Below are positions 21,084-23,511 of a DNA stretch of 49,129 bases, piece by piece. Position numbers and translations under genes: made by a program. The stretch is from Bacteroidales bacterium (lineage in GTDB: Bacteria > Bacteroidota > Bacteroidia > Bacteroidales > ML635J-15): assembly GCA_031284905.1 (NCBI GenBank), contig JAITXI010000162.1, forward strand, positions 1-49,129, read 5' to 3'. Each line of letters opens with the position of its first letter. The first letter of the stretch is position 1. The notes beneath the pieces were generated by a model. It saw nothing but the letters and a program-made list of their open reading frames with translations. It ran no database searches and was not told where the DNA came from.

Positions 21084-21755
21084 CTAGTAATTCCTTTCTC
21101 CAAATATTTGTGTACCTATTCGTATCATTGTGCTTCCTGCTTCTATTGCTATTTTCCAATCGTTACTCATACCCATACTAATTTCATGAAAATTAAAACT
21201 ATGAAAATAATATTTTTCTTTTAAAAAATCAAATATTTTTTTCAATTTATTAAATTCTATATAAATTTTTTTCAAATCGTCTGTAAATGAAGCCATTCCC
21301 ATTATTCCGCAAATTTCTATATTCTGCATCAATTTATATTCTTCACTGTCTAAAATTTCTATTGTTTTTTCTAAATTTAATCCAAATTTCGTTTCTTCTT
21401 CTGCAATATGAAATTCTAAAAGACATTTTATTTTTCTATTTTGTTTAATAGCTTGATTGTTAATTTCTTGTAATAATTTTAAATTATCTACACTGTGAAT
21501 ATATTCTACGAAATTTGCTATATATTTTACTTTATTTGTTTGTAAATGTCCGATTAAATGCCAACAAATATCAAGGTTTTGTAATTCTTCTTGTTTTTGC
21601 AATAATTCTTGAATTTTATTTTCTCCAAAATCTCTTTGTCCCGCATTGTAAGCAGTTATAATTTCTTCTGTAGAATGATATTTTGAAACAGCAATAAGTC
21701 TCACATTATCCGGTAATTGAGATTTAATATTTTCAATATTTTTTGCAATATTCAT
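21084..21755 (-). CDS. yggS: YggS/PROSC-family pyridoxal phosphate homeostasis protein
   Basis: Single-domain PLP-binding protein of 223 aa with an alanine-racemase-like barrel. It buffers free pyridoxal phosphate in the cytoplasm and has no known catalytic reaction. The PLP lysine lies in LIAVSKYHSTEEI near residue 26. DFGENKIQELLQK, WHLIGHLQTNKVKYI, YIHSVDN and SMGMSNDWKIAIEAGSTMIRIG are family blocks, and the last contains the phosphate-binding serine/glycine region. The C-terminus TQIFGERNY is typical. It lies 3 bp downstream of the signal-peptidase-like gene and 6 bp upstream of the PorP-like gene, within the same minus-strand run. No functional link with secretion is known. Confidence 0.94.
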   Translation of the reverse strand: MNIAKNIENIKSQLPDNVRLIAVSKYHSTEEIITAYNAGQRDFGENKIQELLQKQEELQNLDICWHLIGHLQTNKVKYIANFVEYIHSVDNLKLLQEINNQAIKQNRKIKCLLEFHIAEEETKFGLNLEKTIEILDSEEYKLMQNIEICGIMGMASFTDDLKKIYIEFNKLKKIFDFLKEKYYFHSFNFHEISMGMSNDWKIAIEAGSTMIRIGTQIFGERNY

Positions 21756-21758
21756 TTC

Positions 21759-22631
21759 TTATTCTTTTACTTTTCCTAAAATTTGATTTTCGGGTATGAA
21801 ACCGTATCTGCGAGAATCGTTAATTTCATATCTATTATCACTCAAAACAAAATAATAATTTTGTTTAAATGTATATTTATCTGCTTTTTGTCCGTTGATT
21901 TCAATTTTTGAATGGTCGAAAAGCAATTCATTATCTTCATAAACATCAATAATATTTTTATATAAATTTATGTTATTTACTGATAATGAAACAGTTGTTG
22001 ATTTCTTCGGAATAATAACATATTTATATTGGTCTTTATTTCTGGAATTTTTTGTATCGCCCGGAAAAACATCATAAGAAAAATATCTGTCATCAATAAT
22101 TAGCTTTCTAATGTTCACAATTTTATCTGTTTTTAATAATTCGTCTGCTTGTCTTTGATTTGCAATAAATTGGCACGAAAAATTATTAATTATTTTTTCA
22201 ATTTTTAAAACTTTATCTTTTAATAATTCATTAAAATCTGTTGAATCCGACATTGTTAAAATATATAGGAAAAATAAATCATAATTCGGTATTAATAAAG
22301 AGTCGTTTAAAAAAACTTGAGAGTTTATTATTTCAAATTTTTCTCCGGGTCTTGCTATTATTCTTCCCAAAATGTTAGGTTTATCTGAAAAATCATCATC
22401 AAATAATAATGGATTTTTATATAATACTAAATTGTTTGTTTGTAAACATTTTTCAGGATTTTGTTTAATAAAATTAAATAGCGTATTTTCATTTTTTATT
22501 TTTTCGACTAATACGGTTTCTTCTTGTTCTTGAAAATTAGTTATTTTTGTTATTACATACCTGTTAAATGTTAAAAATATTGATAGTAATAAAATAATTA
22601 AAAGTATAATAAATATTGTTTTTTTTCTCAT
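21759..22631 (-). CDS. Signal peptidase I-like (S26) protein lacking the catalytic dyad
   Basis: Predicted membrane-anchored protein of 290 aa with one N-terminal helix (about 4-22) and a periplasmic body. The C-terminal block SDNRYEINDSRRYGFIPENQ (264-283) is a clear match to box E of type I signal peptidases, and GRIIARPGEKFEI (89-101) matches box D. The box B serine motif (SMxPT) is missing after the anchor. In box D the lysine position (KRxxGxPGD in active enzymes) reads ILGRIIARPGE, so the general base is replaced by glycine. The NLVLY segment before box D is the usual structural strand. This looks like a pseudoenzyme or a paralogue with another role. It sits between cdsA and yggS in a compact run. 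A true LepB must exist elsewhere. Confidence 0.75.
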   Translation of the reverse strand: MRKKTIFIILLIILLLSIFLTFNRYVITKITNFQEQEETVLVEKIKNENTLFNFIKQNPEKCLQTNNLVLYKNPLLFDDDFSDKPNILGRIIARPGEKFEIINSQVFLNDSLLIPNYDLFFLYILTMSDSTDFNELLKDKVLKIEKIINNFSCQFIANQRQADELLKTDKIVNIRKLIIDDRYFSYDVFPGDTKNSRNKDQYKYVIIPKKSTTVSLSVNNINLYKNIIDVYEDNELLFDHSKIEINGQKADKYTFKQNYYFVLSDNRYEINDSRRYGFIPENQILGKVKE

Positions 22632-22671: not shown

Positions 22672-23511
22672 TCATAAAATAATTAATTCTTTTAGTGTAA
22701 AATATAAAAAGACAAATGGAATGGAAAAAATGAAACTGTCTAATCTATCCAATAAGCCACCATGTCCAGGTAGTAATTTTCCTGAATCTTTTACGTTGAA
22801 ATGTCTTTTAAACATTGATTCTATCAAATCGCCTAATGTGCCAAAAACGATTGCAATGATTGCAATTATTATCCAATCTATTTTTGAAAAATATGAAAAG
22901 CAAGGAATAATATTGATAAAATATGCTATTATTATTGTAATAAATCCTCCTCCAATTGATCCTTCCCAAGATTTTTTTGGTGAAATTCTTTCAAATAATT
23001 TGTGTCCGTTTTTTTGTCCAAATGCTGTTCCAAATAAATACGCAAAAGTGTCATTAGCCCAAATTAAAATAAATATACCTAATATTAAATATTTTTGAGT
23101 ATTAAAATTTTCTCCGATTGTTAGCAAACATACAAATGTTAATGATAAAGTTAAATAGCTGTATGATAAAATTGATGTTGCTATATTTTTGATAGGATTT
23201 TTGTTTTTTTTGAATAATTCTTCTATAAATACTATAAAAAATAATGGAAAAATAATAAGTATGCCGCTTAAATTATAATTGAAATAACAAATAACAAAGC
23301 TAATGATTATTGAAAATGTTGTAATAATTATTGTTGAAATAAAATTTGGATTTTGTTCTTCGTTTTTAAATAATCTTAAAAATTCAATTGATAACCAGAT
23401 ATTTGCAATTACAAGAAAAGCTAATAACGTCCAATCGTTAATGAGAATTAGACAAATAGTTATAACGACGAAAATTGTGCCGGTCAATAATCTGGTAAGT
23501 AATTTTTTCAA
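22672..23511 (-). CDS. cdsA: Phosphatidate cytidylyltransferase
   Basis: Makes CDP-diacylglycerol from CTP and phosphatidic acid in the inner membrane, the branch point for phospholipid synthesis. At 279 aa with about eight hydrophobic helices it has the usual size. The C-terminal signature SMFKRHFNVKDSGKLLPGHG, continuing into GLLDRLDS, contains the family aspartates and lysines that bind metal and substrate. SPKKSWEGSIGG is a second conserved block. The gene lies 25 bp downstream of ftsH, an arrangement common in Bacteroidota, and 40 bp upstream of the S26-like gene. The overlapping plus-strand ORF at 22652-23098 is an antisense shadow. Confidence 0.95.
   Translation of the reverse strand: MKKLLTRLLTGTIFVVITICLILINDWTLLAFLVIANIWLSIEFLRLFKNEEQNPNFISTIIITTFSIIISFVICYFNYNLSGILIIFPLFFIVFIEELFKKNKNPIKNIATSILSYSYLTLSLTFVCLLTIGENFNTQKYLILGIFILIWANDTFAYLFGTAFGQKNGHKLFERISPKKSWEGSIGGGFITIIIAYFINIIPCFSYFSKIDWIIIAIIAIVFGTLGDLIESMFKRHFNVKDSGKLLPGHGGLLDRLDSFIFSIPFVFLYFTLKELIIL

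Follow-up and report, generated by a model that had tools for sequence, protein, structure and literature searches.

A conserved, dyad-less paralogue of signal peptidase I in Bacteroidales and its possible partnership with LepB

Catalysis by S26 signal peptidases is carried out by a Ser/Lys dyad, whose nucleophile serine lies in the SMxPT box and whose general-base lysine (or His) lies in box D. A gene that keeps the S26 fold and has neither residue raises the question of whether its product cleaves by other means, serves some purpose other than cleavage, or is simply a duplicate in decay. Such a gene, here called lepB2, lies in the stretch of DNA analysed in this work (hereafter the window: 49,129 nucleotides, contig JAITXI010000162.1 of the Bacteroidales bacterium assembly GCA_031284905.1); its features and its two adjoining genes are collected in Table 1.

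Table 1. Coordinates in the window of lepB2, of the elements of its product and of the adjoining genes.
Feature	Position	Strand	Basis
lepB2, dyad-less S26 signal-peptidase paralogue, 290 aa	21759..22631	(-)	ORF from ATG; PF10502; TIGR02227; AF2; Foldseek
N-terminal membrane helix, residues 2-24	22560..22628	(-)	hydrophobic; helix in AF2 model
Strand-turn-strand in place of the SMxPT serine box, residues 25-45; no Ser-Met box	22497..22559	(-)	alignment with own and related LepB; strands in AF2 model
Box D, ILGRIIARPGE, residues 87-97; Gly89 (22365-22367) at the general-base lysine position	22341..22373	(-)	alignment
Alpha/beta inserted subdomain, residues about 115-177; also in Bacteroidota LepB	22101..22289	(-)	AF2 model; Foldseek
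Box E, DNRYEINDSRRYGFIPENQILGK, residues 265-287, intact	21771..21839	(-)	profile and alignment
cdsA, upstream neighbour of lepB2 in the window genome only	22672..23511	(-)	PF01148
yggS (Ala_racemase_N), starting 3 bp past the end of lepB2	21084..21755	(-)	PF01168

The open reading frame was confirmed, and the first-pass annotation was right to assign its product to the S26 fold: LepB2 scores 54.4 bits against the Pfam Peptidase_S26 profile PF10502 (cut-off 22.9) and 62.3 bits against TIGR02227 (cut-off 47), and an AlphaFold2 (AF2) model built on a 34-row alignment reached a pLDDT of 94.1 and a pTM of 0.90, showing a single N-terminal helix followed by a beta-rich domain. Signal peptidase I (SPase I) structures are its relatives in the PDB by sequence as well as by fold, and they likewise make up the top Foldseek matches; whole-length TM-scores against them are low (0.3-0.4, with a large rmsd), which we ascribe to the inserted subdomain and to a different orientation of the helix, and the SipA structure 4n31 matches with a TM-score of 0.69 on SipA length. 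Of the traits of S26A (TIGR02227), LepB2 thus has the fold and the family profile, together with what is predicted to be the N-terminal membrane anchor. Elements of the inserted subdomain are also seen in LepB, both in the alignment and in a LepB model of poor quality (pLDDT 62, with 9 rows in its alignment), from which no more than the secondary structure was taken. In Foldseek, this subdomain, which LepB2 shares with the LepB of Bacteroidota, comes close to the fold of the subtilisin propeptide (1spb_P; TM-score 0.70 on target length, 67 columns, rmsd 2.2).

The catalytic residues were read against the genome's own LepB (L007:568-2220), which carries IPTSSMEKTL (IPTSSMEKTLMVGD) and YIKRCVAISGD. 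In this alignment the serine box of LepB has no counterpart in LepB2, and the column of the box D lysine is occupied by a glycine, so that the nucleophile and the general base of S26A are both missing, as had been noticed from the sequence at the outset.

That same LepB is the one intact copy found elsewhere in the window genome; it is a protein of 550 aa encoded on contig C151 between dapB and trmD, and it answers the query of the first-pass annotation as to a second, intact lepB. The combination of a lost dyad with an intact paralogue in the same genome, known from SpsA, is therefore found here as well. A paralogue search covering 61 genomes, 31 of them from the family of the window genome, recovered the short LepB2 paralogue frame in 31/31 family genomes and LepB besides in nearly all of them. 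While lepB2 is not adjacent to the active peptidase gene in the window genome, it is so in nearly all relatives, where it follows directly behind lepB in the cluster dapB-lepB-lepB2-wbqC (WbqC being identified by PF08889), the genes lying a few to some tens of bases apart or overlapping by as much. The window genome has this cluster dispersed, with lepB on C151, wbqC on C120 and lepB2 between cdsA and yggS, from which it follows that the coupling of lepB and lepB2 is not obligatory. The wbqC match of this genome (G000:C120:4266-4877, L166) contains one TAG, which may terminate a shorter protein or betray a broken gene.

The first-pass annotation had also attached meaning to the gene run of cdsA, yggS and a type IX secretion system (T9SS) pair. 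The run is real in the window, where cdsA, yggS, PorP/SprF and a CHU_C-domain protein surround lepB2, but this neighbourhood is absent around lepB2 in all examined relatives, and where relatives have the cdsA locus, genes other than lepB2 come after cdsA. Given the scattered cluster and the different company of cdsA in relatives, we regard this context as a private rearrangement that is uninformative on the function of LepB2, and we reject a functional tie of lepB2 to cdsA, yggS or the T9SS genes. The first-pass annotation had asked whether dyad loss recurs in homologues at the same gene position; it recurs in all readable family copies, but the position of lepB2 in relatives is behind lepB.

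It is this ancestral adjacency that makes a role in preprotein processing alongside LepB the most likely one. In our preferred reading, to which we assign a probability of roughly 0.55, LepB2 is a catalytically dead, membrane-anchored paralogue of signal peptidase I, encoded ancestrally right behind lepB, that assists or tunes signal-peptide processing; SpsA beside SpsB and SipA offer analogues. Judged by what is known of the family, LepB2 would be held in the inner membrane by its anchor and expose the S26 domain to the periplasm, would be incapable of peptidase cleavage and would work through binding; it would most likely pair with LepB or hand it a subset of preproteins, with substrate capture, or the tuning of specificity or stability, as candidate effects. 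Other signal peptidase complexes have accessory subunits, to which such a role may be likened. As to the narrower claim that LepB2 acts together with LepB, we consider the odds to be even.

The main rival, which we hold to be possible if rather doubtful, is that LepB2, along the lines of the assembly or chaperone factor suggested in the first-pass annotation, serves independently of LepB as a peptide-binding chaperone or scaffold by which certain surface proteins are exported or assembled, in the manner of streptococcal SipA, an S26-fold protein with a replaced dyad and a preserved peptide cleft that has a role in pili without peptidase activity (PMC4049620). The structural match of SipA to the LepB2 model and the ability of lepB2 to leave lepB, as it has done in the window genome, speak in favor of this explanation, yet the serine-box region is much shortened in LepB2, and no consistent client gene was found beside lepB2, whose stable neighbours are dapB, lepB and wbqC. 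Nor is there a pilus or sortase island around it, the neighbours being cdsA and yggS here and the three stable genes in relatives.

The preferred reading of a dead paralogue also presupposes that cleavage has not been taken over by other residues, a variant peptidase having been among the suggestions of the first-pass annotation. Across the family, the box D lysine is absent in 30/30 readable LepB2 copies and the serine box in 29/29 (two family copies are without the N-terminal part), and the residue at the lysine site varies freely among A, S, G, M, R and N. A search of the paralogue family for newly conserved Ser, Cys or His found none. The invariance of box E residues, including Asp265, Arg267, Asp272 and Ser273, might be taken to favor a variant enzyme, as might a Bacteroidales relative (L051) whose gene at this position retains the serine and has Ser in place of Lys; nearly all invariant polar residues of LepB2 are, however, box D/E residues common to active LepB (Arg90, Asp265, Arg267, Asp272, Ser273, Arg274), those at 272-274 being box E residues that LepB has too. 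The few that are specific to LepB2, Asp78 and Arg175, would not form a plausible nucleophile-base pair. Replacement catalytic residues were therefore rejected, none being conserved, and we regard a variant peptidase as very improbable.

The evidence that LepB2 is maintained comes from its evolution within the family. Close pairs give dN/dS values of 0.03-0.17, and in the tree the family LepB2 copies group together as a single clade, separate from that of LepB (SH-aLRT 90). LepB2 diverges faster than LepB, the mean identities across 19 genomes being 38% and 65%, respectively; their distances run in parallel (Mantel r 0.92, with 0/2000 permutations as high), which agrees with our preferred reading but is expected for any two vertically inherited genes. 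That LepB2 might be a functionless lepB duplicate in decay, as its fast divergence and the shrinkage to 117-164 aa in Prevotella could suggest, is scarcely credible against a frame open in 31/31 family genomes (some copies being cut by contig ends), a clade of old origin and purifying selection where a dN/dS near 1 would have favored decay. Conservation and dN/dS likewise reject frameshift or sequencing error as the cause of dyad loss. LepB2 is thus an S26 paralogue of LepB that lacks the dyad, is conserved and is under selection, and the initial description of a conserved pseudoenzyme gains weight from dyad loss in every readable family homologue, from purifying selection and from the intact lepB; LepB2 is very probably both non-catalytic and functional.

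Beyond the family, dyad-less S26 genes occur in or beside the lepB2 slot in other Bacteroidales families, with Ser/Lys replaced by E/M, Q/S, C/S, S/S, R/S, A/S or H/S, and likewise in Bacteroides caecigallinarum (L124; G/S) and a Bacteroidetes bin (L106; N/S). One Bacteroidales copy (L051:6557-7525) retains the catalytic serine box with Ser at the lysine site and is a possible intermediate in dyad loss. The copies of Prevotella/Hoylesella in the lepB-wbqC gap (L129:5795-6241, L102:5826-6236, L117:2828-3235, L113:4318-4743) are shrunken S26 genes without dyad or box E; a cysteine cluster stands in place of box E, e.g. RCCKICDCKECRCY, and perhaps serves disulphide or metal binding. In some other lineages, Mucilaginibacter included, the intact copies number two or three, and in others the extra gene is missing. 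The Mucilaginibacter genomes L088, L119 and L134 have three intact lepB genes in tandem behind dapB; in a Marinilabiliaceae bin (L085:2514-6915) the dapB-lepB block is duplicated, with a third intact S26 gene after it. What lies between lepB and wbqC in Prolixibacteraceae looks LapA-like by eye and was rejected as S26. A dyad-less lepB2 is hence frequent but not universal. A quick tree suggested several independent dyad losses, but a single clade comprising every dyad-less copy is not rejected by the AU test (p 0.47), and independent losses are not claimed.

These findings bear on annotation as well. The window LepB2 and 10/10 further dyad-less proteins tested lie above the TIGR02227 equivalog cut-off, so automatic annotation names them signal peptidase I; with the catalytic residues gone from the sequence, the name given by the curated models appears to be a misannotation. 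The bacteria studied so far cannot do without LepB, which is an antibiotic target, and Bacteroidota, a phylum dominant in the gut, have glutamine-rule cleavage sites as a trait. A bolder and, in our judgement, unlikely extension of the preferred reading is that Bacteroidales, and possibly more of Bacteroidota, possess a two-subunit type I signal peptidase in which catalytic LepB is joined by an ancient, dedicated, dead LepB2 from the same cluster that sets substrate choice, e.g. for glutamine-rule sites. Were Bacteroidota LepB to work with a conserved but inactive partner, the phylum would process its preproteins differently from the E. coli model, and it would become possible to test a bacterial equivalent of those signal peptidase subunits that are not catalytic.

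Our search of the open-access literature, subscription journals lying outside it, found nothing on this LepB2 paralogue or on the dapB-lepB-wbqC locus; dead SPase homologues are already known as a kind in Gram-positives, from SpsA and SipA. SipA of S. pyogenes, with Asp for Ser and Gly for Lys, is essential for pilus polymerisation (PMC4049620); it shares with LepB2 the fold, the glycine at the lysine site and the match of 4n31 to the model, and differs in residing in pilus islands with a sortase, in its requirement for pili and in having the serine position substituted, where LepB2 has it shortened out. SpsA of Staphylococcus aureus is a second type I signal peptidase homologue without the residues needed for catalysis, SpsB being the active, essential enzyme (PMC2721850; PMC12445088). 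Like LepB2, it is a dyad-deficient second homologue in a genome with one active enzyme; it is Gram-positive and dispensable, whereas LepB2 is marked by the inserted subdomain of Bacteroidota and by the dapB-lepB-lepB2-wbqC locus. Bacteroidota LepB itself has the fold, box E and the inserted subdomain in common with LepB2, from which it is set apart by the retained Ser and Lys, a longer N-terminus, an extra region and its greater length.
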